DNA from: a virus
DNA: 64,000 nucleotides
Strand: one strand, 5' to 3'
IMG/VR virus record: IMGVR_UViG_3300020172_002676
Span: 1 to 64,000 of that record
The notes under the pieces are model-generated. The model searched no databases. It worked only from the letters and a program-made list of their open reading frames with translations, and was not told the origin of the DNA. Shown piece by piece: positions 8,201-55,101 of this stretch; within the stretch, counting starts at the first letter, position 1; every line of letters begins with the position of its first letter. The position numbers and the translations under genes were made by a program.

Positions 8201-8218
8201 TTTTATATCTACCGCCAT
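5207..8218 (-). CDS. Large baseplate protein with tail protein I (gpI)-like motif
   Basis: 1003 aa. Around residues 389-480 it carries features of phage tail protein I: LLVNLARTLGW, then a helical stretch, then KSKGTRRSVEFLLRLIG, which resembles the (H/K)xxKGTxxAVxxxL motif of P2 gpI-type baseplate proteins. The flanking parts are long and beta-rich and not recognised. A Cys cluster lies at about 830-850. gpI-type proteins connect the baseplate wedge to the fibres, and this gene sits between wedge genes and fibre genes, which fits. It begins with TAATG coupling to the upstream 302-aa gene (1-bp overlap), so translation is probably coupled. The length far exceeds typical gpI (about 200 aa), so any homology covers only the middle. 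Confidence 0.55.
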   Translation of the reverse strand: MAVDIKNTKYFYPPRPGNGAGTFSDNIVGLQTVEGGGLTQGNFEFTTGVTEKVNRKFNVGAFSEPISLDMLDIGSLDESREILAKQFRVYPNYDVSQVLNFSMYGSLAKRFSVSITKIINYFPASLDIMFSNPNYVTGNTAYDIVYDSEINETYFKINVDRIVNPFDIDYSISATTNLSVRELVTSPYRNLYNTYLDYCVSINDNIFEVVSFTPSETLSSGYIQFYVSGAPFGTTATTTNEDFQVRPNDYIVDKTFLESFDEVEQFLVNRLVRPEYTAVFQVPQQNEYGQTYTDYQQVTWPKQGVWNLDIRSFLFDSYLEQIQEIAINLDSFKTNLISRFLVTDSLKEFDTLGQKVEKVFQIYGRSFDEVKQFIDGLAYMNSVNYNPSNDIPSELLVNLARTLGWSSNFSPITNEDFLSSVFGNTSTPTYPGYARALTPTELNYSYYRNLILNASYLFKSKGTRRSVEFLLRLIGAPDSLIEYNEHIYLADQRINLDQFYTQWANISGGTYASQTPSYLPNSTFKVSGQLFTAFTSSTTYQDTNIRLVDYPIDIEGYPKAPLNTESYFFQIGAGWYEQTPQHRSPDQVVLTGNVYTGQNYDIQTQLTPFTYGQPYLNRFREFPYMTEGFKLQKVVDNNKSWLSDDTKIRVSTEGDYNAYYFVDNEKLVLNVKNVDIFLNPAQGISYDVWDQSRKYDYPIPETGYTINYPVPGGFQPTYINPEPKKKTFFEFYQTFWENMINVRDRQYIFDGKTGGYPNLQSVFWKYIESEQTVGIPNNQYTYQKLIDYVNGIGPYWTKLIEQMIPATTIWNGGTKLENSIFNKEKFVYRRQRGCQFIPVPVNPCYIISNIFDSTCSSKYTDFYIYPWLNGDIDVSNFNSILVNRVNNMLAESGLTLTECVQNSVLSEWFVDLRIGGEIIIQQSFYTGYGLSDVPTNLEWRNALVEYLPNLYNYGYGYTLNCDEGVAPCLNYLKLTVFSLSGSIENISETVTLDVGINININCI

Positions 8219-11083: not shown

Positions 11084-12779
11084 CAATCAAAGGTTTTATT
11101 GAATATTTAACACCAAGAGTGTTATAGTTTATTCCTTCAGGTATCAATCTAAATTGAACTTCCTTAAAAGGATATTGGGCACTATTAATGAATGGATAAT
11201 CAACTCCTCTATCAAGATTGTCCTTGAACCCATAAGTATATATGTCTCTCCATCTGAATTGTTGGTCAGAATTTGAATAAAACGAATAACTTGGGACTTG
11301 ACCTATAAACGCAATATCACCAGTTTCAACATAATCAGAAAAAACTCTAATTGTCATTGGTGTATGTGGTTGATAATAATATCCTGAAGCGTTAGTTGGT
11401 GAAGTATTTGTTGTATGAAATATATTTTGATTATATTTCAATTTTTGATAGTATGGTGATACCACTCTTTCTAATTGTTCATAATCATTCCATTCACAAA
11501 AATCTCCATCTATCGTATCTCCTGACATTAAATTTTGGTTATAATAAAAAATATAATCCGTATTTCCTTGCTTTATGGTATAGTTGGATGTTTGTATCTT
11601 TGTGTTTGATTCTGTTTGAGTATCATCCCACCAAGAACTAATAGGTTTTGTTAAATTAAACTCCCACCCTTGTTTTAATCCAATACCATTATTTGGATTA
11701 TTAAAATATCCAGTATAACCTTTATTTATTATTGTTAAAAACAATTCACTAACAGGTCTTTTCTGATTATCAATCATCCCAACTAAATCTAAGTCATAAT
11801 TTACAGTAATATTATAAGAATTACTACTTGTTTTTTGAGAAACTCTTGTAAGATTATTTGGTGTTATTGAACTATATTCTAATTTTCTTTCCTCGTTAAA
11901 AATGTTTTTTTCAAATGCATTTTTTGTCATAATACAATCTTCAACATTTGTTAGAATTTTATGTTCTCTAACATAATATTTTGATTTTGTTTCCAATAAA
12001 TTATCAGGGTTAATAATTCGTTTAAAGGTACCCGTCCTATTATTCGCAAAAACATAATTTGCAGAAGTTCCAGTATAACCAACATTAAATAAATTAAAGA
12101 CATAAACATCACCACCTAAAGTGTCATTACCCAAAGAATAAACAGGAAATAATCTTGTGTTGTTATATGCAAACCCTGATGATAATTCAACATATTCTCC
12201 AACAGATAAACCGTGTGGTGCAACACATTGAAATGATATTATACCACTACCATTTTGAGTTGAATTTTTAATTGAAAATGGTATCCCTTCGGATGCTATC
12301 CAATTATGACTAGTGTTATTTAACGAATACGATAATATCTTATCATAATTATTTTTATAAGGATAACTAATATAATAGGTCCAATTGTAAGTATAAGCAC
12401 TTATTGCCTTATATTTTAAGTGTTGGTCACTCATATCAGGTCTATAAAAATCAAACTCATAATATTGTGGAAATCCGACCCAAGTATTATTTGACATTGA
12501 AATTATTGGGTCAACATAATATAACGTGTTTCTAAATGGAACATAATCTGTTGTACCTGTATATGTGTTAGCATATAAATAATTAATTTTAAATGTTGGT
12601 CTGAACACAGTACTCGCCTGTCTCTCGTCATCATAAACTTGAGCTAAACTAATTGTAGCACTCCTATCGTACTCCGTAATTTGTTGACTTTGTTGGTCTA
12701 ACGATATTGTAATATCTTGGTCAACGGATGGTGCCGACTTGTATTCTAAACTACTTGGTATGATTGTATACTTATTCAC
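11070..12779 (-). CDS. Baseplate-region structural protein, unknown (GTG start)
   Basis: 569 aa, not recognised. The start codon is GTG at 12777-12779 (M/V-NKYTIIPSSLEY), overlapping the last 8 bases of the upstream 1723-aa gene (GTGAATAA). This tight overlap supports the non-ATG start. The protein is unusually rich in Tyr and Asn and lacks obvious helices, which suggests a beta-structured virion protein. It lies downstream of the gene in the gp7 position, so a baseplate wedge or periphery role is likely but unproven. Confidence 0.5.
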   Translation of the reverse strand: MNKYTIIPSSLEYKSAPSVDQDITISLDQQSQQITEYDRSATISLAQVYDDERQASTVFRPTFKINYLYANTYTGTTDYVPFRNTLYYVDPIISMSNNTWVGFPQYYEFDFYRPDMSDQHLKYKAISAYTYNWTYYISYPYKNNYDKILSYSLNNTSHNWIASEGIPFSIKNSTQNGSGIISFQCVAPHGLSVGEYVELSSGFAYNNTRLFPVYSLGNDTLGGDVYVFNLFNVGYTGTSANYVFANNRTGTFKRIINPDNLLETKSKYYVREHKILTNVEDCIMTKNAFEKNIFNEERKLEYSSITPNNLTRVSQKTSSNSYNITVNYDLDLVGMIDNQKRPVSELFLTIINKGYTGYFNNPNNGIGLKQGWEFNLTKPISSWWDDTQTESNTKIQTSNYTIKQGNTDYIFYYNQNLMSGDTIDGDFCEWNDYEQLERVVSPYYQKLKYNQNIFHTTNTSPTNASGYYYQPHTPMTIRVFSDYVETGDIAFIGQVPSYSFYSNSDQQFRWRDIYTYGFKDNLDRGVDYPFINSAQYPFKEVQFRLIPEGINYNTLGVKYSIKPLIDGCE

Positions 12780-15700
12780 TTATTGAGTATTTTGTTTTGA
12801 ATTTATCTAAGGCACTTGCCCCCTTAACTGTACCGAAATAAAAATGGAACGGTGCTCCTACCATAAATTTTGATGGTGATTTTCCAATCGCACTAATGTA
12901 ATCACCATTTACATCCACATTAAAAATATACCCTCTAGCAATTAAATCATTTTCCATAGTTGGAGAATAAACATCAGGTGTAAAATAACTTGGGGTTTTA
13001 TCGTAAATCCTATCTAATGATTGATATGGTCTATTTTGAACAATGTCTGAACCACCTGTCGCCCAATTATTATCTTGAGTTCCAAAAATCGTACTATTTG
13101 TGGACTTTAAACTCCATTGATAAAATGGTACAACTTGTGATTTTATCCCATAGGGATATGGATACAGTTTGTTATTATTATTAACATTTCTAAAATCAAT
13201 TCTTCCTGGTGTTAAATAATCTTTAGTTTGTAAATTTTCTGTTGTTGATGAATACCACACAGCAATTGTTGGATTTTCAGGAGTTCCTATTATTTGAGCG
13301 GAAGTACCACTATAATATTCCGATGAAAATCCAATATTTCCAATTTCTGAATTTATTGACATTAACTGAGCCAAATCCGCGTCAACTCTTTTTCTAGCAT
13401 ATATATCAAAAAATCCACCACCACCTTTTGGTCCTCTTGAAAATAATTGTTGGATACTATTATCACCCAAACTAAGTATTTTTTGTAAAAAATTCTCATC
13501 GGTTATTCTTGATATAACAAAGAAATTAATAAGGTCGGAGGTATCACTATAACTTGTAGGGTTTAAATTTGGCATTATATATCCATTAGTTGAGGGGTCA
13601 AAAGTTATTTCACTATAGAAAGAATCTTTGATTCCCAAATTAATAATTGTTGTTGGAAACAATAAATTCCTATTGTTTACCGCCCCATCATCGGTTGCTT
13701 GTCTTCCAACGAATTTTTTAGTATCAACACTATACGGACTACTTCTATAATAAAAATTACTAGTTGGTTTATCAAAATAAATTACATCTGATTGATATTC
13801 GGATTGTGGTATATTTTGTTCATCATAAATTGTATTAACCTGAATTGGAAATGCATATAACGTCCCATTTATCCAATTATTAGTAAAAGATTGCGATAAC
13901 ACACCTCTACATAACCCATAAAAAAATCTAAATCTATATGTCCACTCCGAAAAGTTTTTTAAATCAGTTACCAAATCTGTTAATGGTTCATTCATAAAAA
14001 CATAACAACCCGCCTCAACATTATCGGAAGCATTACATCCAGGGTTAACCTCAAAACTATCCCCAAATCCTTGATAACAAGATAATCCAACCATACTTGT
14101 ACAGTTAAAAGTTCGTAAAGCATTATTTGATGCTGGTAATCCTGCGATATCCGCAGTAACAACTGATGCTCCAGTACTAGCACCTTCAACCCTCGCGTTA
14201 ACACCATCTTCACCGATTAAATATGTTTGAAATCCAAGATTTTGTTGTAGTAACGGTTGAGATGCCGCCCCTTCTTGTAAAAAATCTGATGATGGTAATC
14301 TATCTGTTCTCATAACATTAAGAGTACTATCATTAATTGTCATAGCAGTAAGAGGATTAAAAGGCGTAATTGGGTTGAGGTAAAGATAATTTAACGGAAA
14401 CACCTCAGAAATATATTTAGAATATCCTTTTAGTGTGTTATTTGTATCAGGCTGTAAAAAACCTCCCTTTTCATTTGGCGTAAGGTCAAAATCAATATAA
14501 ACACCAGCACCTGACACATCTTCTGATGAATCGTATTTAGCATTAGATTGTAATGGGTCATAAGTTTGATTATTAGATTTTGAAACTAAAACATTTACAC
14601 CTCCTAATTGGTTTGGTGGACTTCCAAAAAATGTGGGGCTAGGATTCACATTAATATCAAACTTACCATAATATCTAACTTGGTTAGTTGTGAATGATGA
14701 AAATTCTAATCCATCAATAGATGAACTAGTAACACCAGGTCTAAAAAAATGTGATGGTGTAAAAATAGAAGGTTGTCCTAATTGAAAATTTTGTACTGAT
14801 ATTCCACCATTTGGTAATGGTTGAATTGGTGTATTGATTCTTGTTTTTGCAGTAACTCTCACCTCATTGTTATCTGTAGACCCAAATAACTTACCAACAC
14901 CATATTCATTAATATATAATGGTGAATATGGGTCAACACCTCTTTGTAATATTGTAACATATTGTTCTTGGAATCCATCAAAATAATCACCATACCGAAA
15001 AGTCAATCCGAATGAATTCTCTTTATCTGGAGTGGCATCCGTATCTGTAAAATTTATACTAACATTCACATCACTATTTAATATTGATGGAAAACTTTGA
15101 GGGTCAGAACTAGGGTTATCAATAGAATTAAAAATCTTAAAATACTCTGTAATTGTTAATGCCGTTACTACTTGAAAATATTCAATATCTGAAGGATATA
15201 TGCTTCTTTGGCATGTTGCACCAACACTTACTAAAGTATAATCAGTATCACCATCTAATGTAGAAATATCAATACAGTCAGTATCTACAATATTAACAAT
15301 TAAGGGAGTTGTGGTAGGTTTTGTTATTGTTTTTTGTTCTCCAAAACAAGTGGTGTATGTAAAAGTGGTGGTTTCAGTAATTCTAACAGTTAAACTATCA
15401 ACACATTGTGCCTCTCCATCACCAACAGAACCACTACCTAAATCATATATAACACTTGATTGTGTCGTCTGTCCAAGAGGACTGGCATAGTTAACGGTTA
15501 TATTACCTTTTTTTGGTATTAAAGCAGTACCTCGTATTCCTTTAACAACACCACTTAACTTAGTTTGTCCTGTCCATAAATAATTAATATCTTTACTATT
15601 TTGAGGGTTAACAAATGTTAATAATTGTCCCGCATCATATTTTTCACCATAAACAATCGTTAACGTATTATCCGTATGAACTTTACTACCAGTAACATCT

Positions 15701-17943
15701 CCGTTAGATGGTGTATCAAAAGTAACATTAATTTGATTAACCCCATCAAAATATTTCTTACGAGTATTAAACACATTAATTCTTTCACCCAACGGAAGTT
15801 GTGTTGAATAACACATAAGCTTGTCATAGTCAGCATCTATTCCATACCTATTAGATTTAGTTGATTTAAATGTATCGTCTTTATCTATTGGTGAATTTCT
15901 GGTTCCAATTGCCTCACTAACCGCAAGACTCGTAACTGACTTTCGGGTGTCATCATTTAATATTGTGTATGTGCCGTTAGCCAAATAAGCATTAGATAGT
16001 ATTTTTTCATAATATAAACCACTATTACTAAATTGTGTTAGTGTAGAACTTGGAGGTGATGATACTGTGTTTTGTTGCATACTTTCAGGTATACAATCAC
16101 ACGCCTGACAATCAGGATAAGTCATCATTGATAGTTTAAATCTTGCAAATTTATAACTAACAATTTTTCTAAAATTAATAAGTAAAAATAATGCCCCTAA
16201 AGTATATAATACCGCTTGAGCAGCAAATCCAAAAATCATTCCTGCCGTTGCCCCAAACGCCGCAGTACCCGCAATAGCCCCAATAAATAAAGACCAATAG
16301 TTAAATGCGTTATACCCAAAAAGACCTATTAAATAAATAAGAAGAAGTACCGCAAAATTATTCCATAAGAATGCAACAAGATGATAAACAATTAGTAATA
16401 TAGGTCCAACTATTGATAATATTTGAAACAGAATTGAGAACAAAAAGAATAACCAATCAAAGTTTCTTACACCTTCGTTTACAGGAAATTTATTTACACC
16501 ACTGGCACACGAATTATCACCAATTTCTTTTATACCTATAAACTGACCTTTACCACCCTTTTTATATTCATCAATTAATGATGCAACAGTATAAACTTTA
16601 TTAAAATTAAACTCATAAAATGTGTCTTCACAATTTATAACTTCATTTAACCTATTATAATATTGAGTCGTAATAGTAAACCCGCTCGTATACCCACTCC
16701 AATCCAACCCAAAATAATATGAACTACCAATTTTATCCCCATCATATTCTTTAACATTTGGTACTAAATAATAGGCACGTCTAACTTGTTCTGTCAATGA
16801 TGCTGGTTGTTGCCATTTAATTTTAAATCTGTATTTTCCCTTGGTTGGAATACCAATTGTAGGGTCATTAGATAATACTTTTTCACCAAATTCGTTAGTA
16901 ATGAAATAATCCAAATTCATTGGTAATTCTGTTAACCACGTTCCATCACCATCAATTACATTACCCGATTGTTCCATTTGGTATACTTCTAAGACAGGAT
17001 TTCCATCACTATCTTGGTCTATAGTTTGTCTTATGGCAAGAATTTGTCCTGGTCCTGAAATTAATTCACATAAATTACCCAAATTATCATCAGGTTTACC
17101 ACCAAACTCAATCCCAAAAAACTCAGACACTGGTGTTATCCTCATTTCATCAGGACTACTAAACATTGACCCCATAAAAACAGAGGTTGGTTGTATATTA
17201 ATATTGGCATTATCTCTTAAATCAAAATCAATTCTATTGATAGAAACATCACAAATATCTTGTTCACCCCATAGAGGTGAGATTTCTAACGCTTTGGTTA
17301 GTGTAATAATTTGAGGTAATGAATTTAAATCCGTTGAGGTTTTAAACCTGTTACCCGCAACTTGACCTTCAGTGGCCAAACCCATTCTAATTAAATCTTG
17401 AGGTGTTAAAGAAAATTCTCCGATGTCGGATAAATCAACATCCATGACTAATGTTTGGTATCCCAAAGGAACACCCATTATCATATAATCACCACTTTCA
17501 TTTGTTTTTGCAGTAAACTTATAGTACTTGTCGTAGATTTCAATTGCAGTTGTCCCAGTTAAAACATCTAATCTTGTGGGTAATGTACCTGTCGCTGCGT
17601 GAGTAGAATATGATTTCTCATAAGGTAATAAATTATAACGATACCCATCTTCATTCTTATCTGATAGAGATTTGTAGGGATATATACTTGTTATTAAAGG
17701 ATTTGATTCATCAACACTATCTATCGGTATGAACACAGCAACCCTAGCATTCGGTAATCCAAAACCATTATTTGCGGTAACTCTACCAACAACAACACCA
17801 TAGTCAGAACAACTTCTTGTGTAAATGTCCGCCTGTTGGATTTTTAAAGATAAAATCTCCAAAAACTCAAACTCTTGGTCTAGTTGTACATCAATTGATT
17901 TGTTAATCCCTAACTCAGTCCTTATTCTATATGATTGACCCAT
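12772..17943 (-). CDS. Giant baseplate-position protein with carboxypeptidase-regulatory-like domain and membrane segments
   Basis: 1723 aa, immediately downstream of the gp6-like wedge gene, the place held by gp7 in T4. Residues about 48-170 resemble a carboxypeptidase regulatory-like beta-sandwich: VVVGRVTANNGFGLPNARV followed by KTNESGDYMIMGVPLG. Such domains are very common in Bacteroidota outer-surface proteins. Residues about 491-604 contain four or five strongly hydrophobic stretches (for example LLIVYHLVAFLW, AVLLLIYLIGLFG and a Gly/Ala-rich GAIAGTAAFGATAG), ending in basic residues and a Cys-rich CQACDC motif. The remaining 1100 residues are beta-rich and unrecognised. Membrane segments are not expected in a T4 gp7 homologue. 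A DNA-ejection channel or membrane-docking role is speculation. Confidence 0.6.
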   Translation of the reverse strand: MGQSYRIRTELGINKSIDVQLDQEFEFLEILSLKIQQADIYTRSCSDYGVVVGRVTANNGFGLPNARVAVFIPIDSVDESNPLITSIYPYKSLSDKNEDGYRYNLLPYEKSYSTHAATGTLPTRLDVLTGTTAIEIYDKYYKFTAKTNESGDYMIMGVPLGYQTLVMDVDLSDIGEFSLTPQDLIRMGLATEGQVAGNRFKTSTDLNSLPQIITLTKALEISPLWGEQDICDVSINRIDFDLRDNANINIQPTSVFMGSMFSSPDEMRITPVSEFFGIEFGGKPDDNLGNLCELISGPGQILAIRQTIDQDSDGNPVLEVYQMEQSGNVIDGDGTWLTELPMNLDYFITNEFGEKVLSNDPTIGIPTKGKYRFKIKWQQPASLTEQVRRAYYLVPNVKEYDGDKIGSSYYFGLDWSGYTSGFTITTQYYNRLNEVINCEDTFYEFNFNKVYTVASLIDEYKKGGKGQFIGIKEIGDNSCASGVNKFPVNEGVRNFDWLFFLFSILFQILSIVGPILLIVYHLVAFLWNNFAVLLLIYLIGLFGYNAFNYWSLFIGAIAGTAAFGATAGMIFGFAAQAVLYTLGALFLLINFRKIVSYKFARFKLSMMTYPDCQACDCIPESMQQNTVSSPPSSTLTQFSNSGLYYEKILSNAYLANGTYTILNDDTRKSVTSLAVSEAIGTRNSPIDKDDTFKSTKSNRYGIDADYDKLMCYSTQLPLGERINVFNTRKKYFDGVNQINVTFDTPSNGDVTGSKVHTDNTLTIVYGEKYDAGQLLTFVNPQNSKDINYLWTGQTKLSGVVKGIRGTALIPKKGNITVNYASPLGQTTQSSVIYDLGSGSVGDGEAQCVDSLTVRITETTTFTYTTCFGEQKTITKPTTTPLIVNIVDTDCIDISTLDGDTDYTLVSVGATCQRSIYPSDIEYFQVVTALTITEYFKIFNSIDNPSSDPQSFPSILNSDVNVSINFTDTDATPDKENSFGLTFRYGDYFDGFQEQYVTILQRGVDPYSPLYINEYGVGKLFGSTDNNEVRVTAKTRINTPIQPLPNGGISVQNFQLGQPSIFTPSHFFRPGVTSSSIDGLEFSSFTTNQVRYYGKFDINVNPSPTFFGSPPNQLGGVNVLVSKSNNQTYDPLQSNAKYDSSEDVSGAGVYIDFDLTPNEKGGFLQPDTNNTLKGYSKYISEVFPLNYLYLNPITPFNPLTAMTINDSTLNVMRTDRLPSSDFLQEGAASQPLLQQNLGFQTYLIGEDGVNARVEGASTGASVVTADIAGLPASNNALRTFNCTSMVGLSCYQGFGDSFEVNPGCNASDNVEAGCYVFMNEPLTDLVTDLKNFSEWTYRFRFFYGLCRGVLSQSFTNNWINGTLYAFPIQVNTIYDEQNIPQSEYQSDVIYFDKPTSNFYYRSSPYSVDTKKFVGRQATDDGAVNNRNLLFPTTIINLGIKDSFYSEITFDPSTNGYIMPNLNPTSYSDTSDLINFFVISRITDENFLQKILSLGDNSIQQLFSRGPKGGGGFFDIYARKRVDADLAQLMSINSEIGNIGFSSEYYSGTSAQIIGTPENPTIAVWYSSTTENLQTKDYLTPGRIDFRNVNNNNKLYPYPYGIKSQVVPFYQWSLKSTNSTIFGTQDNNWATGGSDIVQNRPYQSLDRIYDKTPSYFTPDVYSPTMENDLIARGYIFNVDVNGDYISAIGKSPSKFMVGAPFHFYFGTVKGASALDKFKTKYSISE

Positions 17944-28405: not shown

Positions 28406-31400
28406 TTAAAGAATAATATATTCCATCTTAAATGGTAATAAAACATCTTGTGGATTCTTAACTTTATCAAGTGGAATTGCTCTTACATAAAAAGTAACAT
28501 TAACTTTACCACCACTATAACTATTAATTACCGCAGGACTTAATCCTAAAACATTAAGTAAGAATTGATTTTGGTCCATTGTAAACACATTACCCGAAAC
28601 AAAACTAGTATTTGGTACGTTTGTCAAAACGGTTGATTGTTTTAGTATCTCTATGTTTTGTGTGTTATTTGGTCCTGCAACAACTTTAGTAATATTATAA
28701 ACATATTGTGGTAAATTCCATATATCCCAAACTCCAACATTAGGGGCAACTTGTACACTTAATGTTCCGTCTAAGGTAGTACTTGAAATTAAAGTTACTG
28801 GTGATGGGTTTGTATTGGCCGCAGAAGTTGAATTCGGTAATGATGGTACTCCAGGTAATGATTGTTGTGGGTTATAGGTAAATAAAGTACTACTTACACC
28901 ATTTCCGTATTTTGTTCTAACACTAATTGTATTAGTTTGAATTACTAAAGTAGGACTCTTCGGTACTATTACCGATATATTGCTATCAGTATAAACAGTA
29001 ATACCTGTAGTTGTTAAAACATTATTAATGGTAACTCCTGTTGTTGTTTCAAAACCAGTTCCAACAATATTCAAAATAGTATTATTAACGCCAATATTAG
29101 GTGAGAATGATTTTATTGTTGGTGGAGGGCACGCAACAGGTACAGTTGTAGTTGTATTAAGATTATTTGGTGTTGGTGTTTTTCCAGCGTTAAGGTCGGC
29201 AATTTTTTGTTTTTGTATTTCATCTGCGGTTCTAGCACCTTTAACGGACTCAACATTTAATCTAACTTCTCCCGCAGAAGAATATCCTTCATTAGTAGTT
29301 TTAATTAATTTTGTATATTCATTAATATGTGAATCATAATAACTTGTTGAAACCGCATTATTACTATTTTCACCAGGCCAAGAACAAGCATAAAATTTAG
29401 GTATTGACAGTCCATCAACAAATATTTGGTCAATTCTTGGTAATAATCTTGCAATCATAAAATCAACAAAGTCTTCAACATTTTTAAAATTTGCAACAGG
29501 TTGTGAAGTTGTCGTACCTTTTGAATTTGGAACGTTAACACAAGAATATTGTTTTTGTATAAACTTATCACTTGTTAATCCAAAATCGTAGTTTAATTCG
29601 ACCGCAGCATAATTGTTATTATATCCATAAAATGTACCTCCTTTAAATGTTCTAATATAACACATAATATAAATAAAAACTTGTAAATTTTCATTTGCTG
29701 TTCTTTGTGTTATAACATCTGCAAGTTGTTGTGGTGATAATGATGTTGTCTTAGATTCTACAACTTCCCAAGTACTGTATTGAGTATTTAAATTGTTTGA
29801 ACACGAATTTTGTGCTGCAGCACTATTATCACCACTCTGTGAAAGTAATGCGGATTTATTAATATTAGTTATTGGTTTGTCAGTAACACTATCTTTTTTA
29901 GATTTAACAATGTTCTCAATTTCTGTTAAAACATTTTGATTAATACTTTGTAAAAGATTATCTATTGATGGTAAATCATATATTCCTTGTCTAATACCAC
30001 CAAACCTTGTTTGAAAACTTCCCGCAGTTATAGTATGATTAACTTCAGTAACCATATATGGACCATTAAACATTGGTACGTGTCTAAGATTAAAATACAT
30101 TGTTGGTTGTAATAACGCATTACCCAAACAAGTCACATCACATTTATAACTTCTTTGTTTATAAAGATTATATAAACTAACATTTTGTGTTGTGGTGTTT
30201 TTTCCATTTGCTTGGTCAACCATATCTAATTGAGCCTGAATTGATTCAGATGTTGCCTTTCCACTATCCATTGACACATTAAATGAATAAAAAATATTTT
30301 GATTTCTGATTCCAATATCAACATTAAATCCAACACATTTATTTGAAACCGCCCAATCTTTTTTTCCGACTTGATTTTCAATTAGTGGATTTTCCGAAGC
30401 CCTTCTTAATTCAAATCCATCATCTCTATATCTTGAATTACCCTTTGGTAAATCTAAGTGTGTTGATGGGATTCCAACATAAAAACAAATTAATTTAGGT
30501 CCAGATTTTCTATAATCAACATCTAAAAATGTTCCCCACATATTGTTAGCAAATTGTAAACTACCCTCTGGTTGTGGTATTGTTGTACCATCAACCTCTT
30601 GGACATTATAAAAGTTAACATATGCAGGTAATGGCATTACATTAAATTTATTTTGAATTAAAATACCACTTATGAATGTAAAAACACTCATTGACATATT
30701 AAGTGACTTTTCAGTTAACTTATCTTTTAAAGAAAAAATATCAATAATAACAGTATCCCCAATATTCCTTGATGCCCTATCTAAGAATAACATATCTTCA
30801 AACAATGTTTTTGTTTTAAAATCCCCACCAGCAATCCACTTGTCGTTTAAGGCTTTGAACATTTCATAATTTTCAACTTTACTTTGTGTACCATCAATAA
30901 CACTTCTAATTGTTTTTTCGGGTAATTCTTGTTGGTTTGGTAATTCGGCTCTAACTTTACCTAGAATTTGATTTAATAAAATTGTTTGTAATCCACTTGT
31001 GCCTTGTAGGTATGTGTTAAGTCTGGTTTTAAATTCAGAACTTGTCAATGTTGGAGTATACAACTTTTGAGTTGCATACATTTTAATAAGTGGTGAACAT
31101 AAAACAATATTATCAACGGTAAAACCTATATTATTATCAATAAAAAAATCGGTAATATACGAACCATTATCATCATACCTAAGATTTGCAATTGTTGAGA
31201 ATCCTACTTCTGTTTCTAACGCTGTCCATTCAAGTGAAAAATTAGTTTTAGATTGAATTAAAGTAGTAGTATTAGTTTTTGATGGTAATGTATTATTAAC
31301 ATACGGTGTAAAAATTATAGGGTCAGTAATTGTTGAACTACCACCATTAGAAGCCAAAAAGGAATCAAACACTCTTCGTTTATAATTTGCAGGATTACCA

Positions 31401-34400
31401 TATTTTAACATAACGTCATATTCCAAAAACGTTTTAATTGTATTTGAAAACGATACTAATTGAGTACTTCCAATTGTGTTAAAATATTCATCATTTGATG
31501 TTGATATCTCTTTTCCATTGACCCCCATTAATGTTCTAAACAAGTATTGGAAATTTTTATATACCGCATTACTATCCACAGGAGAATCCCCAATTGGTAC
31601 TTCAATCTGTACCCCTAAATCAATATCTGAAATTGGTTTTGAAAAATTTAAAAACTCTTGTTCAAATTTATCTAAAATACTCTTATCAAAAACTGAAAAA
31701 ATTTCTTCAATTTTAGAATAATCATCATCCATCTTTAAGTTAAATGATGATTGTTTTGATGTCCCCGTTAAAATTTTATTTAAATATGAATCAGGTTGTG
31801 GCTTACTTATTTGATTATTATCAAAATATCCAAAATTTGATGTTGACCATAATAATCTAACAGAACCATTATACATTGATTGGTTATTAGTTAAATCCAC
31901 AACAGTATTATTATTAGTAATACATTCAATTTGTGTTTGATTAATTGACGAACCAAAAGATGGAACAACATAATATTTTGCGTTTGTTGTTTTTGGAAGT
32001 GGAGAACAAGAAAGAGAATTTTGTGCCAAGTCCGCAATACCATTAGGTAAGATTACTGACCACGTATTTACTGTAATTGCCGAAGACCCTTGACTTGCAA
32101 ATATTCTTGAACCCGTAAAATTAAAAAGATTAATACCCCCATTAACACTATCTTGTATTTCGGCATCAGAATATGTTTGGTATAAGTCATATCCATTATA
32201 AAACACATTAAAATCGTTAATAACTTTAGGATAAAATCCTGTTTGAATTGATATACTATTAGTGTTAGATTGTTGTAGTGTTATATTTTGGTCAACTCCA
32301 CCAAATTTAAATGTGTATGTTTTTGTGTCTGAACTAGTTATTGGGTCAAAATTTACTTTGTAGTCAAAGTTTTTCCAAGCAGAGTCCAATATATCAAGTC
32401 CACTATTTTTATAGGTTTTATATCTATACCATATAGAACCCATTTTCAATACCCAAGCATATGGCATTTTATGAATCGCACCAAACTTTTTAAAACAAGA
32501 TGCAATATAATCTAACTCACTTGACGCTCCAACAGTTTTATATCTTTCTCTTAGAGACGCTAATGGTAATGAATTTATAAAAAGATACGCCGCCTGAGTA
32601 TAAGCATACTTATCTTTTCTCCTCCAATTATATACACCATTTTGTATCGCATTGATAAAGTATGGTGTGTTTAACATTGAGGTTGTTGTCTCTATTGTTA
32701 AATTTTTGGTTGGGGAAACGTAATTAACATATCCCTCAGATGGTACAAAAAACTCAGGGTCTTTTCTTTGTGTATCATAAAAAAACGCTAAGTTATTGGT
32801 TCCAAGTATTTCAATTGGGTTTTTAACATTTAAATAAGAAAAATTTGTAACAGGTCTATTTGTTGTATAATTGTAAATGCTATCAAAATTTGAAATAACA
32901 TTTCTTGGTACAAAAACACTTAAAACATTTGTTGTGTTATATACCGAATTTTTAGACGCATTATTACTAAGGCTCATGTTATTTGAAACCCAAGAAGGGT
33001 CGGTAAATGGATATGTATCAATAATTAATGGCTCATTTGTTGCGTTTTTAACTAATTGTGTTAACGCTAATGAGTTTGTACTTGTTTGCGGTTCTCTACC
33101 TAAATCATTAATACCAAGAATATTAAAAGAATTTTCTGTTATATTCTTTATGTAAGGTGTTACATAAAAGTCCCTAATAAAATCTTGATATGACCTACCC
33201 GTTCCTTGATTTGATATACTCTCTAAAAATGTGGGGTAGTTTTGTGCGGTTATATCATAATTTTTTAATTTTAAACTTAAATAAGGTGAACTAACACCTA
33301 ACCCTGTTACAATATTATTTGTTTCTGCACTAGTCACCAAATCAACCAATTGATTTAATTGATTAGTATTGGCCCTTATAAATCCAGAATAATTTGATGT
33401 TAAATATTGTCTTTCCCATATCTCATAGAAAAATTTAATTTCTTCTTTATTAACATATGCAATACTCGCTGATGGATATTCAATAGCATTAACATTAATA
33501 ATATTTGTAGTTGATTGATTATCAATTGGTGGTTCAGTTGGTGGATTAAATTTTTGTGTTAATCCTCTCATATATTCTTCAACAAACTCTACTTCAGGCC
33601 ATTTATCAAATTGAGAACCTTGTGTTTGGTAAACATATTTTGGGTCACCAAGATACGCCAATTGGAATCTACCTTTTTTATATTCTTCCGTTACCTCAAC
33701 AAAAAATTGTGGCCACGGATACACAGGTATTTGGGAAGTAGATAATCCTTGATTACTTGCCTGAGCACTTGCTGATATTTTTACATCATCAATTGTATCG
33801 GTTCCTGGTGCTGACGATGGATTACTTAAAATAGCATTTTTTCTTATTGGGTCGTATTTTACATTCCAAGCGTTTGTATGAACATCATCAAGTAATCTAA
33901 TGAATGCTTCCGCTGAAGCCATAATAACAGCACAAATATTTCTAACGGTTGGTCTAAATCCAATACCTGTTGACGAATCTTCAATTTTTCTTGCAAAATC
34001 TTCGGTTATTTTTTTTTCGTATTCTGAAAGTTTTTGATTTGCAATCGTCTCCATTTCAGAAATTAATACTTCAAATCTAGGAAGATTTAATGAGAGTTTT
34101 CCTCCTCCCTCAAAAATATATAATGGAGGTGTAATAATATTACCAATAGTACTTACCGCTCTAGTATCTGACGTGTCTTTTTCGGAAATAGGTTTAAGTA
34201 TTTTTTCTAATTCTATACTCATTGATAACTTGTCAGCTTCGGTTGGTGTAATAATTCCTTTTTGTTCTGTTGTTGTTTTATCTAAATTAATATCCGATGG
34301 AATAATAGTTCTTAAAAACGTATCATAACTAATACTATTTTTAATAGGCGTTTGACTTTCGGTTCCAAGTGTCGGATTTGATGCTAGTAATTTATTAAAT

Positions 34401-35680
34401 TCAGTTGTATACCCACTTAAAAGGCTTTTAGCACGTTGTTGTGCAACAGGGTCTTTTCTTATATTTTCTTTAAAAAAGAAAACTTGTTCATTATTGTCTT
34501 TTAATATTATAGGGTTTGGGTCTAAATAAGTGTTAAACCAAGATGTTCTTTCACCAATGATTGTATTATAATAATTTTGTAAAGTCTCTTTGTACGCCCT
34601 AATATTTGTTAACGGTGCAACATCAACTTTACTATATGAGTCAACAATATTTCTTTCAAAATTTTGAATTTTACTCATTAGTTGCGCAAAGGTAATTTCA
34701 GGAAAATCAGGACTAATTAACCCTTTGGCTTTATATTCACTATAAAGTTCAACAACTTTTTGATATCCTTTTTCAGACACTAGTTGAGTTGATATATTAT
34801 CAGTACTTATTGTAGATTCTTTTGAAATCGCACCTGTCTGTGAAACATTGGCTCTGGTATTTTTGTCTCCAACTTCTGGTGATATTGGTGATTTAGAAAT
34901 ATCAAATCTTGTACTGTACATATGTGGAGCCGCAAGTAAGTGACCCATAGATACCTCATTCAAGATATTAAATTTATATCCAATAAATTCCAATCTTATT
35001 TGATAATTTCCACTATTTCCATTAAATGACGCATTAAACGTTTTTAAATTCAGTTGGTATCTCACTGCTTGTCCATAATAACCCTTTAATGTTAAATAAA
35101 ATGGACAATATGGTAAATTAAAAAATGCTGAATATGGTGAATCATTACCTAATTGGAATAACGCTCTTCCCTGAATATCTTCTAAGAGTATTGTTACTGT
35201 TGGTACAAACGAAGTGTTAGTTGTTACATTAATACTTGTAATACCTAATAAACCATTATCAGTTGCTTTATCACCAGGCGCACTAACTGTATTTTTTTCA
35301 TACGGTTTAGACCCAATAGGTTCTATAATCTCCTGTCTCATTTGGTTTTGACCTAAACCATTTTTCGCATTTTTACCCGTTAACTCATCATAATAACCTG
35401 TAGTTAAAAAAGTATCCTCTGTTGGTCTTAAAAAATTCATTTTAGCAACTGAAATAGTTCTAATCCTATCTTCAGATGTTCCTCCAACCGCCAATTTTGT
35501 TCTTGGTATAACCTCGGCCTCAAGGTTTGCAAACATAACCAATTTTTCGTGGTCAACTAATCTTTCTCTAATATTTCCAAAAGAGTCTATTGTTTTGTTG
35601 GGGTCAACCATAATAATATTATTATAATCAAACTCAACCAATATGTTACCACTATTGTCTCCTTGTACGTTACCTGCCAT
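28406..35680 (-). CDS. Giant tail/baseplate protein with IPT/TIG domain
   Basis: 2424 aa. The N-terminal 300 residues contain LLEDIQGRALFQLGND and YCPFYLTLKGYYGQ, beta-structured and hub-like in character. Around residues 1830-1895, a Cys-containing block ends FNLRHVPMFNGPYMVTEV, then TITAGSFQTRFGG. This resembles the outer-strand and exit region of tail-hub (gpD/gp27-like) proteins. Residues about 2000-2030 hold an NNNYAAVELNYDFG segment reminiscent of peptidoglycan-hydrolase folds, which is weak. Residues 2184-2271 are an IPT/TIG domain (IKSFSPNIGVNNTILNIVG onward). It overlaps the gp53-like gene by 11 bp. A multi-domain hub or tail-tip role is inference. Confidence 0.6.
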   Translation of the reverse strand: MAGNVQGDNSGNILVEFDYNNIIMVDPNKTIDSFGNIRERLVDHEKLVMFANLEAEVIPRTKLAVGGTSEDRIRTISVAKMNFLRPTEDTFLTTGYYDELTGKNAKNGLGQNQMRQEIIEPIGSKPYEKNTVSAPGDKATDNGLLGITSINVTTNTSFVPTVTILLEDIQGRALFQLGNDSPYSAFFNLPYCPFYLTLKGYYGQAVRYQLNLKTFNASFNGNSGNYQIRLEFIGYKFNILNEVSMGHLLAAPHMYSTRFDISKSPISPEVGDKNTRANVSQTGAISKESTISTDNISTQLVSEKGYQKVVELYSEYKAKGLISPDFPEITFAQLMSKIQNFERNIVDSYSKVDVAPLTNIRAYKETLQNYYNTIIGERTSWFNTYLDPNPIILKDNNEQVFFFKENIRKDPVAQQRAKSLLSGYTTEFNKLLASNPTLGTESQTPIKNSISYDTFLRTIIPSDINLDKTTTEQKGIITPTEADKLSMSIELEKILKPISEKDTSDTRAVSTIGNIITPPLYIFEGGGKLSLNLPRFEVLISEMETIANQKLSEYEKKITEDFARKIEDSSTGIGFRPTVRNICAVIMASAEAFIRLLDDVHTNAWNVKYDPIRKNAILSNPSSAPGTDTIDDVKISASAQASNQGLSTSQIPVYPWPQFFVEVTEEYKKGRFQLAYLGDPKYVYQTQGSQFDKWPEVEFVEEYMRGLTQKFNPPTEPPIDNQSTTNIINVNAIEYPSASIAYVNKEEIKFFYEIWERQYLTSNYSGFIRANTNQLNQLVDLVTSAETNNIVTGLGVSSPYLSLKLKNYDITAQNYPTFLESISNQGTGRSYQDFIRDFYVTPYIKNITENSFNILGINDLGREPQTSTNSLALTQLVKNATNEPLIIDTYPFTDPSWVSNNMSLSNNASKNSVYNTTNVLSVFVPRNVISNFDSIYNYTTNRPVTNFSYLNVKNPIEILGTNNLAFFYDTQRKDPEFFVPSEGYVNYVSPTKNLTIETTTSMLNTPYFINAIQNGVYNWRRKDKYAYTQAAYLFINSLPLASLRERYKTVGASSELDYIASCFKKFGAIHKMPYAWVLKMGSIWYRYKTYKNSGLDILDSAWKNFDYKVNFDPITSSDTKTYTFKFGGVDQNITLQQSNTNSISIQTGFYPKVINDFNVFYNGYDLYQTYSDAEIQDSVNGGINLFNFTGSRIFASQGSSAITVNTWSVILPNGIADLAQNSLSCSPLPKTTNAKYYVVPSFGSSINQTQIECITNNNTVVDLTNNQSMYNGSVRLLWSTSNFGYFDNNQISKPQPDSYLNKILTGTSKQSSFNLKMDDDYSKIEEIFSVFDKSILDKFEQEFLNFSKPISDIDLGVQIEVPIGDSPVDSNAVYKNFQYLFRTLMGVNGKEISTSNDEYFNTIGSTQLVSFSNTIKTFLEYDVMLKYGNPANYKRRVFDSFLASNGGSSTITDPIIFTPYVNNTLPSKTNTTTLIQSKTNFSLEWTALETEVGFSTIANLRYDDNGSYITDFFIDNNIGFTVDNIVLCSPLIKMYATQKLYTPTLTSSEFKTRLNTYLQGTSGLQTILLNQILGKVRAELPNQQELPEKTIRSVIDGTQSKVENYEMFKALNDKWIAGGDFKTKTLFEDMLFLDRASRNIGDTVIIDIFSLKDKLTEKSLNMSMSVFTFISGILIQNKFNVMPLPAYVNFYNVQEVDGTTIPQPEGSLQFANNMWGTFLDVDYRKSGPKLICFYVGIPSTHLDLPKGNSRYRDDGFELRRASENPLIENQVGKKDWAVSNKCVGFNVDIGIRNQNIFYSFNVSMDSGKATSESIQAQLDMVDQANGKNTTTQNVSLYNLYKQRSYKCDVTCLGNALLQPTMYFNLRHVPMFNGPYMVTEVNHTITAGSFQTRFGGIRQGIYDLPSIDNLLQSINQNVLTEIENIVKSKKDSVTDKPITNINKSALLSQSGDNSAAAQNSCSNNLNTQYSTWEVVESKTTSLSPQQLADVITQRTANENLQVFIYIMCYIRTFKGGTFYGYNNNYAAVELNYDFGLTSDKFIQKQYSCVNVPNSKGTTTSQPVANFKNVEDFVDFMIARLLPRIDQIFVDGLSIPKFYACSWPGENSNNAVSTSYYDSHINEYTKLIKTTNEGYSSAGEVRLNVESVKGARTADEIQKQKIADLNAGKTPTPNNLNTTTTVPVACPPPTIKSFSPNIGVNNTILNIVGTGFETTTGVTINNVLTTTGITVYTDSNISVIVPKSPTLVIQTNTISVRTKYGNGVSSTLFTYNPQQSLPGVPSLPNSTSAANTNPSPVTLISSTTLDGTLSVQVAPNVGVWDIWNLPQYVYNITKVVAGPNNTQNIEILKQSTVLTNVPNTSFVSGNVFTMDQNQFLLNVLGLSPAVINSYSGGKVNVTFYVRAIPLDKVKNPQDVLLPFKMEYIIL

Positions 35681-50575: not shown

Positions 50576-52327
50576 ATGGAAATAAGTTTAGAGTCCAAAG
50601 CGATGGCGATTCTTGAGACCTATGAAGGTGGTAATAACTATCTTTTAGAATTAAAACGTAAATCACAGATTAACAGAAAATTCTACCCAACAAGAAGTCA
50701 GTCGGAGTACATAATCTCATATCACGACAAACAACCAAAGGTTGCTAAGAAGTGGGTGATACTTGATGCTTATTTCGCACAGAAATTGGCAGATGATAAA
50801 CTATACACGGAAATACCACAAAAAGTATGGGTTGAAAAACTTTTGGCGGATAAAGAAAAGGCGTTCCATATTTGGGGTAGAGTATTTGAAACTGAAGAAT
50901 TTCACGATTTTTGGTTACCAAAGGCGGCAGTCATAAAAGACAATACCGTTAAAGATGTTGTAATTGATTATGAAAAATATTCAAATAGACCCCCGCTTCC
51001 ACATCAAAAAGAAGCAATCCAAAAATTAGTAGAAAATAAGAAATTTATTTTGGCTGATGATATGGGGTTGGGCAAGACAACAACAACTATTATTGCCGCC
51101 CTTGAGGCAAATGCAAAGAAAGTTTTAATTATTTGTCCTGCAACTCTAAAAATAAATTGGAAAAGAGAAATTGAAAACTATTCTGATAAATCTATCTATA
51201 TTGCTGAGGGTAAGAATTTTAGTACTGAATCTGATTATGTAATTATAAATTACGACATTATAAAAAACTTTCACGACCCAAAGAAAAAAGAGGAATCTCA
51301 AATCCTTTTAGCAAATTTTGATTTGGTTATTATTGATGAAGCACATTACATTAAGAATGGTCAAGCACAGAGAACAAAATTGATAAATGATTTTGTTAAG
51401 AATATTGACCGACTTTGGTTATTAACGGGAACACCTATGACATCAAGACCAATGGATTATTTTAATCTATTAAGTTTGGTTGATTCTCCTGTCAGTAAGA
51501 ATTGGATGGCGTATGCGGTTAGATATTGTAGTGGATATCAATTTAATGTTGGTGGAAGAAAGATTTGGAATATTACTGGAGCATCAAATTTGGATGAATT
51601 AAGAGAAAGAACATCATCAACCATCTTAAGACGATTGAAAGAAAATGTTCTTGATTTACCTGATAAAATTATCACACCAGTTTATTTAAGATTAAAATCA
51701 AAAGAATATGAAGAAGTTATGGGTGAGTATTATGATTGGTATGATAAAAACCCTGATGAATCAAAATCTTTAACCGTTCAATTTTCTAAATTGACAAAAA
51801 TTAGACAGATTATTGCCAACGAAAAAGTAACTCAAACAATTGAACTTATTGAAAATATTATTGAACAAGATAAAAAGGTAATTGTATTTTGTAACTTTAC
51901 AGAATCTTTAAACAGAATTGCTGAACATTTTGGAAAGGCTGCCGTTAAACTTGACGGGTCTATGTCCAAAGCTAGTAGACAACATAGTGTGGACGAATTT
52001 CAAGAGAACCCAAAAGTAAAAATCTTTGTTGGAAATATTAAAGCGGCAGGAGTTGGTATCACCTTAACCGCAGCTGAAGCAGTGATAATGAACGATTTAT
52101 CATTCCTACCATCAGACCACGCACAATCTGAAGATAGAGCATATCGTTATGGACAAAAAAACAATGTATTAGTTTATTACCCTATATTTGAAAACACAAT
52201 TGAAGGGATAATTTATGACATATTAAACAAGAAAAAACAAGTTATCGCAACGGTAATGGGAGACAATCAAAACCCCGCCGATGCCGCTGAAGAAATTTTA
52301 CAAAGAATCAATGAGTTGAGATATTAA
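50576..52327 (+). CDS. SNF2-family DNA helicase/translocase
   Basis: 583 aa. A 140-residue N-terminal domain of unknown fold precedes the two RecA-like lobes. Motif I is LADDMGLGKTTTT near 160, motif II is IIDEAHYIKN near 253, and motif III is LLTGTPMTSRPMDYF. Motif V is NIKAAGVGITLTAAEAV, and motif VI is AQSEDRAYRYGQK near 515-527. The last is the QxxxRxxRxGQ signature of SNF2/SMARCAL1-type enzymes, which remodel forks or anneal ssDNA. It may do the job of T4 UvsW in fork reversal and recombination. It is the first gene of the plus-strand unit and is followed by a 104-bp gap with two promoter-like sites. Confidence 0.9.
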   Translation: MEISLESKAMAILETYEGGNNYLLELKRKSQINRKFYPTRSQSEYIISYHDKQPKVAKKWVILDAYFAQKLADDKLYTEIPQKVWVEKLLADKEKAFHIWGRVFETEEFHDFWLPKAAVIKDNTVKDVVIDYEKYSNRPPLPHQKEAIQKLVENKKFILADDMGLGKTTTTIIAALEANAKKVLIICPATLKINWKREIENYSDKSIYIAEGKNFSTESDYVIINYDIIKNFHDPKKKEESQILLANFDLVIIDEAHYIKNGQAQRTKLINDFVKNIDRLWLLTGTPMTSRPMDYFNLLSLVDSPVSKNWMAYAVRYCSGYQFNVGGRKIWNITGASNLDELRERTSSTILRRLKENVLDLPDKIITPVYLRLKSKEYEEVMGEYYDWYDKNPDESKSLTVQFSKLTKIRQIIANEKVTQTIELIENIIEQDKKVIVFCNFTESLNRIAEHFGKAAVKLDGSMSKASRQHSVDEFQENPKVKIFVGNIKAAGVGITLTAAEAVIMNDLSFLPSDHAQSEDRAYRYGQKNNVLVYYPIFENTIEGIIYDILNKKKQVIATVMGDNQNPADAAEEILQRINELRY

Positions 52328-52381: not shown

Positions 52382-52412
52382 TTTGGAAAATCAAGAAAAA
52401 AAAATATCTTTG
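52382..52412 (+). promoter_or_regulatory. Bacteroidota housekeeping promoter
   Basis: TTTG at 52382-52385, a 19-bp spacer, then TATCTTTG at 52405-52412. This equals the -33 TTTG / -7 TAnnTTTG consensus of Bacteroidota sigma factors with its normal spacing. The predicted start is about 10 bp before the ATG at 52432. Confidence 0.75.
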
Positions 52413-52431: not shown

Positions 52432-53961
52432 ATGAAAAAAACCGAAAAAAAAATACAACAATTAGAAGTAGAAATCCTTGAAGGTCACGTTAACAAGGAA
52501 AAGGAATTGTTGATAACAGAAATGAAAAAAATAGGAATAGAAAAATTACCCTATTCTTATACAGCCCTAAAACAATTCATTGACCCAGAGACAATGGATT
52601 TTCATTATAACAAACATTATAAAGGGTACGTAGACAAATTAAATGACGCATTGTCAAAGAAAAAAGAAGGGGATTTAGATTTAGAAAAAATTATTAAAAC
52701 CATCAGTCGTTTTGATAAAAATATTAGAAATAACGCGGGGGGAGCATTTAATCACGCATTGTTTTGGAAAATGTTAACTCCAACACCAAAAAAATTGGAA
52801 GGGGAACTTTTCAAAAAAATAACAAAACAATTCAAAACATTTACGTTATTTAAAAAAGAATTTGAAAAAACCGCTAAAAATCAATTTGGTTCTGGTTGGG
52901 CTTGGTTGGTACTTACACCGAAAAATACATTAAAAATTATGGCAACTCCAAACCAAGACAATCCGTTAATGAATGTGATTGAAAATGGGGGGTTTCCATT
53001 ATTAGGGTTAGATTTGTGGGAACACGCATATTATTTAAAATATAAAAATAAAAGAGATGAATACATTACAAATTTTTGGAAAGTTGTTAATTGGGAGTTT
53101 ATTACAAAGTTATACGAAATGAGAATTGAAACCAAATTATCCGAATCTATCCATATGAAACAAGTTTTAAGTGAAAGCAAATCAGAAATGTGTTCAAGGT
53201 CTGATACCGAATACTATAAAACCCTGTTTAATGTTAACGAGGCAGTTAAGAGTACATACATGCATGGTATCAATAGAATCATTAAGGAAGTATTTAATGA
53301 GAATTATATTGAAAAACCTGAGAATAATGAAATGTCGGGAGTTTATAATATTGAAGGAACTGGTAGGTCGGTGTTGAATAAATTAAACACAAACTACACA
53401 ACTTTTTGTATCTTATTAAGAGATGTTAACCAATTCATCGCAACTTACCCAAATAAAAAACCAATTAGTTTTATTGACAAAATCCCTAAAGAACAAGTTA
53501 CAGAAACTGAAAGATTTATACATGCTTTGGATTATTTTAAATTTAGAATTTTTGACAAAGAGAATTCAACATTCCATAACCTATTGAAAACATTGGCAGA
53601 TAAAAATGCTGCAGGTATTAAAAGGGAAGAAATAACCGCAGCAATTATTAGACGTTATTTTGGTCCAACCGTTAAGGTTGATTTAATTGGTGGACCTGGT
53701 AATAAAAAAGATGCCATAGGTGGTATTGATTTAGAACTAACTATAGATGGAGTATTATATACCGCACAGGTGAAAAAATTTGGTCAAAAAATTATAGATA
53801 ATGATAATATTACTTTAGAAGATACGGGACAGGTTAAACCATATCGTACAGATTTAATGATTTTCCAAAGAGGTAAAAACGTTTTAATTTTTAATAAAAA
53901 ACCAAGAATTATTGATGGAAAATATGTGTTTCCACCTGATTCGCTGTGGTACAGTATATAA
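52432..53961 (+). CDS. Superoxide dismutase fused to a PD-(D/E)XK nuclease-like domain
   Basis: 509 aa in one uninterrupted frame. Residues about 38-230 are an Fe/Mn superoxide dismutase. The ligands H58 (DFHYNKHYKGYV), H108 (NNAGGAFNHALFW), D194 and H198 (LGLDLWEHAYYLKY) are all present, with the gateway Tyr66. The pattern AGGxxNH with Q175 in NQDNP points to the manganese type. Residues 231-400 are a helical region of unknown function. Residues about 400-509 contain IGGIDLELTIDG and then YTAQVKKFGQ, giving D433 followed by Q446-x-K448, the D-x(12)-QxK core of many PD-(D/E)XK nucleases. This fusion is not a known phage architecture to me. It is driven by a host-type promoter. Confidence 0.82.
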   Translation: MKKTEKKIQQLEVEILEGHVNKEKELLITEMKKIGIEKLPYSYTALKQFIDPETMDFHYNKHYKGYVDKLNDALSKKKEGDLDLEKIIKTISRFDKNIRNNAGGAFNHALFWKMLTPTPKKLEGELFKKITKQFKTFTLFKKEFEKTAKNQFGSGWAWLVLTPKNTLKIMATPNQDNPLMNVIENGGFPLLGLDLWEHAYYLKYKNKRDEYITNFWKVVNWEFITKLYEMRIETKLSESIHMKQVLSESKSEMCSRSDTEYYKTLFNVNEAVKSTYMHGINRIIKEVFNENYIEKPENNEMSGVYNIEGTGRSVLNKLNTNYTTFCILLRDVNQFIATYPNKKPISFIDKIPKEQVTETERFIHALDYFKFRIFDKENSTFHNLLKTLADKNAAGIKREEITAAIIRRYFGPTVKVDLIGGPGNKKDAIGGIDLELTIDGVLYTAQVKKFGQKIIDNDNITLEDTGQVKPYRTDLMIFQRGKNVLIFNKKPRIIDGKYVFPPDSLWYSI

Positions 53962-53988: not shown

Positions 53989-55101
53989 ATGTCAGTTATA
54001 CCAGAACCAGAAAGGTCAAAAATTTATACAAGGATTAAACACCTATTGGGAGCCCCACTTAGAAGTGTTGAAATTGAAGATGAAATGATGGATTCTTTAA
54101 TGGAATTATCAATTCAAGATTACGAACAATATATCCAAGATTGGCTTATTGAAAGCCAATGGGTTAACTTAGTTAATCTAAACATGAGTGAAAGGTCAGT
54201 CGCAAACGCATTGATTACAAGAACTATGGATTTTGAACAACAATTTTCATATTCATATTCTAAAATCGTTGGTCTTCAAACTATGGGACCTTGGGTTCTA
54301 AAGAAAGATTATATCGTTCTTGAACAGAACAAACAAGATTATGAAATTCCTGCAGGAAGAGAAGTAAACGAACTTTTATGGTTTAGTAACCGACCATTTA
54401 CCGCTTTCGGTTTAGGTGGTATTGGTGGTTTTGGTGGTGTTGGTTTAGGTGCTAGTGAAGCAGGATTTGCTCAAGCGGGTAACCAAGGTTCTTATTATAT
54501 GATGTCAGGTTTTGACTATCTAATAAGAATGCAAGAAGCAAACATTATGAACAGAATTTTGGGTGGTTCATTAACATATAGAATTACAGGATTACCTGAC
54601 GGAAAGAAAAACATACAATTATACAACGCACCTGGTAACAGTTTTAATTGGAATAATTATAGTGGATATGTTGGTAAAGCAGTTTGGTATTGGTATTATG
54701 ATGTAACACCTGATAGTAGAGCAGATTGTTTAAAGAATAACCCTGATGTAATTAAATTACCATCAGATGTTCCTTTAGGTGAATTAAATTGGATTGATTT
54801 AAATACTCCCGCACAACAATGGGTTAGAAGATATTTTACAGGATACGTTAAAGAAACTTTAGGTAGAGTTAGGGGAAAATATAGTGGAAACTTAAAAACT
54901 CCAGATTCTGAAATAATGATGGACTACACAAGTTTATTGACTGAAGGTAAGGACGAGAAAATGAAATTAGTTGAGGAATTACAATTAAGACTTGAAAGAT
55001 TGCGTCCTGAAAAACAAATGGAAAAAGAAGCGTTGTTAGCTGAAAATTTAAATAAACAAATGAGATTTAGAGCAATGCCTCGTCAAATATACGTAATATA
55101 A
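53989..55101 (+). CDS. Neck protein, gp13-like
   Basis: 370 aa (T4 gp13 is 309 aa). The start IYTRIKHLLGAPLRSVEIED is the typical (I/V)xxxLGxPxxxVE(I/L) opening of gp13-type neck proteins, followed by helices DYEQYIQDWLIESQW and a QTMGPWVLKKDYIVLE strand. A Gly-rich loop (about residues 140-170, GLGGIGGFGGVGLG) is an unusual insertion. The C-terminus has a long helix (KLVEELQLRLERL) and a basic tail. It would join the portal to the tail together with gp14- and gp15-like proteins. Unlike them it is encoded on the plus strand. Confidence 0.65.
   Translation: MSVIPEPERSKIYTRIKHLLGAPLRSVEIEDEMMDSLMELSIQDYEQYIQDWLIESQWVNLVNLNMSERSVANALITRTMDFEQQFSYSYSKIVGLQTMGPWVLKKDYIVLEQNKQDYEIPAGREVNELLWFSNRPFTAFGLGGIGGFGGVGLGASEAGFAQAGNQGSYYMMSGFDYLIRMQEANIMNRILGGSLTYRITGLPDGKKNIQLYNAPGNSFNWNNYSGYVGKAVWYWYYDVTPDSRADCLKNNPDVIKLPSDVPLGELNWIDLNTPAQQWVRRYFTGYVKETLGRVRGKYSGNLKTPDSEIMMDYTSLLTEGKDEKMKLVEELQLRLERLRPEKQMEKEALLAENLNKQMRFRAMPRQIYVI

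Follow-up and report, generated by a model that had tools for sequence, protein, structure and literature searches.

A described parallel to the gene reported here is found in the head of phage T4. The T4 prohead protease gp21 recognizes the motif L/I-X-E, and the T4 internal proteins possess N-terminal propeptides of 10-19 aa and are ejected (PMC9026906). Alt is likewise packed into the T4 head and ejected, as are foreign enzymes that carry the targeting sequence as a fusion (PMC9026906), and the cleavage sites in Alt are ITE and LTE (PMC5694885). Phage superoxide dismutases (SODs) and T4-type injected proteins are already known; in our literature searches, no paper was found on a phage SOD-nuclease fusion or on a combinatorial, apparently cleavable SOD cargo. 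We analysed a stretch of 64,000 nucleotides (the window), which corresponds to positions 1 to 64,000 of the IMG/VR virus record IMGVR_UViG_3300020172_002676. A gene in this window joins an SOD to a nuclease-like domain. As the first-pass annotation of the window had stated, it is a single uninterrupted frame, which starts with ATG and encodes 509 aa. The gene and its parts are as follows.

52432..53961, + strand: SOD / PD-(D/E)XK fusion gene, 509 aa (open frame, Pfam, conservation)
52432..52521, + strand: residues 1-30, N-terminal helix, putative capsid-targeting propeptide ending I-T-E30 (model helix 2-33 and motif conservation)
52522..53145, + strand: residues 31-238, predicted Mn-type Fe/Mn superoxide dismutase (Pfam, PDB and fold matches; ligands, Q175 and G192 invariant)
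53137..53175, + strand: residues 236-248, linker with putative prohead protease sites L236-S-E238 and L246-S-E248 (motif conservation)
53176..53556, + strand: residues 249-375, helical domain; R312, S313, N316, N319, T320 and N321 invariant (alignment and model)
53557..53958, + strand: residues 376-509, PD-(D/E)XK-type nuclease domain; E399, D427, D433, Q446 and K448 (fold match and conservation)

We propose that the gene product is a precursor of head cargo in a T4-type jumbo phage, built of modules that a protease can separate. The 30-residue N-terminal helix would target the precursor into the prohead core, and cleavage behind E30 and E238/E248 would fall to the phage's gp21-type S77 protease. 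The products, an SOD dependent on Mn and a nuclease of the helical/PD-(D/E)XK type, would be ejected into the host with the phage DNA. Once there, the SOD would remove superoxide as infection begins, and the nuclease would cut some DNA. To such a precursor, packaged in the head, cut in the prohead and bringing SOD and nuclease along when the DNA is ejected, we give a probability of roughly 0.57, and we regard this cargo as a strong, testable case. The protein resembles T4 IPI-III and Alt in its N-terminal propeptide, its L/I-X-E sites and the gp21-type protease, which is here found in relatives. Unlike the T4 proteins, it carries several enzyme domains per chain, with the motif at each joint and a longer propeptide, and its place in the head is a prediction.

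Because L/I-x-E is common, only conservation of the motif counts. Among the 118 distinct SOD-bearing homologues, [LI]-x-E is present at residues 28-30 in 98%, and L/I/M-x-E is present at residues 236-238 in 100% and at residues 246-248 in 99%. The outer two residues of the motif are constant and the middle residue is variable (6-10 kinds). Outside the SOD active site, these three positions in the linkers flanking the SOD are the sole highly conserved L/I/M-x-E sites. In the control proteins (helicase, neck and polymerase), there were 4 comparable sites in 1878 aa, and the rough chance of three sites within ~40 linker residues is 1e-4. The last site (246-248) is retained in 12 of 14 SOD-less homologues. 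Peptidase_S77 was over the cut-off in 10 of 16 related records, including one (G018) with a near-identical capsid protein, and the T4-type major capsid protein of these phages possesses QAS[YF]LINE|A near residue 61. A helix similar to the N-terminal one, (K)LxxTExxLxxLLxE, also opens other proteins (L374:7616-8748, L418:5057-5578 and L406:16226-16693), where it may be a head-targeting or other signal.

The fusion gene lies in a slot between two constant neighbours, both assigned by PHROG match and locus comparison.

50576..52327, + strand: SNF2-type DNA helicase gene (phrog_62), constant upstream neighbour
53989..55101, + strand: neck / head-tail adaptor-like gene (phrog_211), constant downstream neighbour

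In nearly all loci with both sides covered, with or without SOD alike, the gene is flanked by the helicase and neck genes; a few loci have a small extra gene within the slot. The neck gene adjoins in every family locus where the neck side is covered. Some close relatives have no SOD at the same locus, and SOD-less members fall in three places in the C-terminal tree, each nested among SOD-bearing branches (three changes counted). SOD has thus dropped out of this gene on at least three occasions, and each time the nuclease module was retained. For example, one SOD-less relative (L262) keeps the N-terminal helix and the SOD-opening words NEMKKI-I-KL, and then runs straight into the next linker. 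No SOD was found elsewhere in a 318-kb record of the SOD-less group, and the records may be incomplete.

Two further searches, one starting from a related stand-alone phage SOD and the other from the neck protein, found other versions of the slot. In these, "zincin" denotes a conserved HEWxH motif, and nucB and nucC are called nuclease-like from acid/lysine patterns alone. By content, the distinct slots comprise SOD with the C-terminal (CT) module (97), zincin-SOD (37), zincin-SOD-nucB (16), zincin-SOD-nucC (13), CT alone (12) and SOD alone (4), plus rarer mixtures. The joint motif L/I/M-x-E stands at the borders with these unrelated partners as well: SOD-to-nucB 16/16, SOD-to-nucC 18/18, SOD-to-CT 103/103 and zincin-to-SOD 53/55, in total 190 of 192 joints. 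It differs little from the L/I-X-E of T4 gp21. Judging from these loci, SOD is an optional, separable module of the gene. A broader idea, to which we give slightly less than an even chance, is that jumbo phages keep a cargo slot for cleavable precursors, and that SOD, metallopeptidase-like and several nuclease-like modules are packed in the head, separated by the prohead protease and injected together, as a payload that brings its own antioxidant enzyme. In other jumbo phages, the helicase-neck slot contains SOD joined to the HEWxH zincin-like module and/or the two other nuclease-like modules at L326:4509-6587, L392:4917-7532 and L384:4590-5678.

A scan of viral contigs yielded at least 597 relatives, and the fusion is kept in the 118 distinct SOD-bearing homologues. 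The pattern is not due to chance, because 597 of the 599 listed pattern matches encode a relative and because SOD and C-terminus share one open frame in 156 of 157 loci checked. The region from SOD to C-terminus was free of stops in all 156 SOD-bearing loci checked (first two scans), and the protein length is nearly constant (508-512 aa in the first homologue set). A frameshift or stop splitting the domains had been named as evidence against the fusion. The sole split, an apparent frameshift in the fusion of L373 and L374 (two separate contigs; SOD to 5750, the rest from 5705), lies inside the C-terminal part and not at the domain border. Pairwise omega, for SOD-bearing pairs where it was computable, was 0.01-0.08 for the SOD and 0.05-0.21 for the nuclease. 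Both halves are under purifying selection. The carriers are a large group of uncultured lake phages.

In the SOD half, Pfam detects Sod_Fe_N (2.2e-23) and Sod_Fe_C (7.4e-39), and the two domains cover residues 36-226. The closest solved proteins are MnSODs, the best being from Sphingobacterium (E 3e-56; 6gsc is named as the Sphingobacterium MnSOD in the fold match). The metal ligands H58, H108, D194 and H198, already recognized in the first-pass annotation, are invariant in all 118 homologues, as are Y66, Q175, G192, E197 and Y201. Mn preference is associated with a C-terminal Gln and a small residue at XD-2 (PMC10172142). Because Q175 and G192 are present in 118 of 118 proteins, Mn preference is predicted by this rule. 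By sequence, the SOD half is an intact SodFM1 Mn-type Fe/Mn SOD with predicted dismutase activity. It shares with bacterial SodFM1 enzymes such as 6gsc all ligands, Q175, G192 at XD-2, and E197 and Y201 of the dimer interface, and it is ~51% identical to the nearest bacterial SODs, which are mostly from Bacteroidota. Unlike the bacterial enzymes, the phage SOD is fused on both sides and forms a separate group in the tree. The stand-alone SODs of the PA5oct group and Vibrio phage 2.275.O are likewise phage-encoded Fe/Mn SODs; however, they are short, single-domain proteins of 24-27% identity with no nuclease and another gene neighbourhood. UniProt A0A6J5L953 (uncultured Caudovirales phage, 501 aa) probably has the same architecture, because the C-terminal module resembles it in structure (TM 0.88, E 6e-21) and because the entry is named superoxide dismutase, with no other function given.

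For the C-terminus, Pfam, PHROGs and PADLOC gave only sub-threshold or scattered weak matches (e.g. DUF6602 and MC4), a profile search of PDB sequences gave no match, and a scan of bacterial genomes detected no relative. A P0002 scan in viral contigs gave no match. A shallow alignment left the SOD half of the full-length model poor. Therefore, the C-terminal module was modelled by itself, and its 270 residues reached pLDDT 91 in a model from 83 diverse sequences. The best solved match by Foldseek was the PD-(D/E)XK homing endonuclease I-Ssp6803I (2ost; prob 1.00, E 2e-3, TM only 0.38), followed by a weak match to the resolvase Hjc (E 0.36). Thus, the predicted fold agrees with the PD-(D/E)XK assignment that the first-pass annotation had drawn from D433-x(12)-Q446-x-K448. 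In the resulting catalytic pattern (E399, D433, Q446-x-K448), E399 is invariant in 132 of 132 proteins with and without SOD, and D433, Q446 and K448 are invariant in all 131 that cover them. The same motif occurs in a very distant, stand-alone relative in a 735-kb megaphage genome (hhalign 98.4%). The 170 residues between the two halves, earlier called unknown, have no convincing family match, but in the model they belong with high confidence to a single unit that also includes the nuclease domain. The model supports a domain specific to viruses that combines a helical part with a PD-(D/E)XK-like part and may cleave DNA. It resembles I-Ssp6803I and Hjc in fold and in the E-D-QxK motif; unlike known PD-(D/E)XK nucleases, it is a virus-specific family of its own with a helical domain of ~125 aa in front. 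The module is also included in a 1113-aa uncultured marine phage protein (BFVD A0A8D9CCA0, TM 0.82).

Several points weigh against a head cargo. No protease was found in the record of this phage, a 103.8 kb fragment that stops within the capsid gene. The propeptide has 30 residues, as against 10-19 aa in the T4 internal proteins (PMC9026906), and the upstream neighbour is a replication-type helicase. The last motif is absent from two SOD-less relatives, and 37-aa joint windows often contain L/I-x-E by chance. No enrichment of L/I-x-E was found at the N-termini of the proteins in this record (37 of 92, about as in shuffles). Moreover, the M31 that directly follows E30 may be an internal start codon or else a relic, and packaging in the head is a prediction from sequence.

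A single bifunctional protein in the infected cell, in which the SOD shields the adjacent nuclease or the nuclease's DNA, or controls the nuclease through redox state or metal, seems unlikely. The continuous frame in nearly all sampled SOD-bearing relatives and the nearly constant length, together with the invariant Cys254, would suit such an enzyme. However, the nuclease module outlives the losses of SOD, SOD has other partners in the same slot, and no coupling of the two active sites was seen. We disfavour the bifunctional enzyme because the protease motif at the joints, the gain and loss of SOD and the changes of partner are left unexplained. On the same grounds, the redox- or metal-gated nuclease suggested in the first-pass annotation finds no support; its two other suggestions, a host-defence countermeasure and protection from oxidative damage, are compatible with the results. 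We also assign a low probability to a cytoplasmic DNA-metabolism protein that works with the neighbouring helicase, its SOD guarding replication from oxidative damage and its joints being ordinary linkers. The constancy of the helicase and the weak resemblance to Hjc point in this direction, but the other constant partner is the neck gene and unrelated partners share the joint motif. That the nuclease domain is a non-catalytic, DNA-binding structural piece of the head is quite improbable, since E399, D433, Q446 and K448 are invariant wherever covered and recur in the megaphage relative, although the gene adjoins the neck gene and the TM score of the best nuclease match is low.

If the cargo proposal is correct, it would suggest that phages face oxidative stress of consequence from the very beginning of infection and that they bring their own SOD in the particle. 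Injected phage proteins could then be found from sequence alone by a simple rule, wherever domain joints carry a protease motif and a prohead protease is also encoded, and the slot would be a reservoir of uncharacterised nuclease modules.

The first-pass annotation had also proposed a host-type promoter and early action of the gene. The promoter-like site is present:

52382..52412, + strand: promoter-like site of the Bacteroidota type (TTTG-N19-TATCTTTG), 19 nt upstream of the ATG; relatives do not conserve it

However, this motif is no commoner in the window than expected by chance (5 vs 2.9 +/- 1.8), and it occurs in only 1 of 95 distinct upstream regions, that of this phage itself. The early role is therefore unsupported. 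In the SOD tree, the fusion SODs form one supported group, which includes one stand-alone phage SOD, among mostly Bacteroidota SODs, and the polymerase of this phage has distant relatives in Salinibacter phages. Because of these two placements and the promoter-like site, a Bacteroidota host is likely.

The window contains further very large open reading frames, at 5207-8218 (1003 aa) and 28406-35680 (2424 aa) without a Pfam match and at 12772-17943 (1723 aa) without a PHROG match. Short unannotated "phage" records such as OR850395.1 and OR845917.1 encode bacterial-looking SODs and are probably host DNA contamination. At L231 and L325, a contig binned in a metagenome-assembled genome of Fluviicola (Bacteroidota) and a 222-kb phage contig encode the identical stand-alone SOD, so the binned contig is probably phage DNA. 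Lys-Ala-rich proteins are encoded at the same L231/L325 stand-alone SOD locus.
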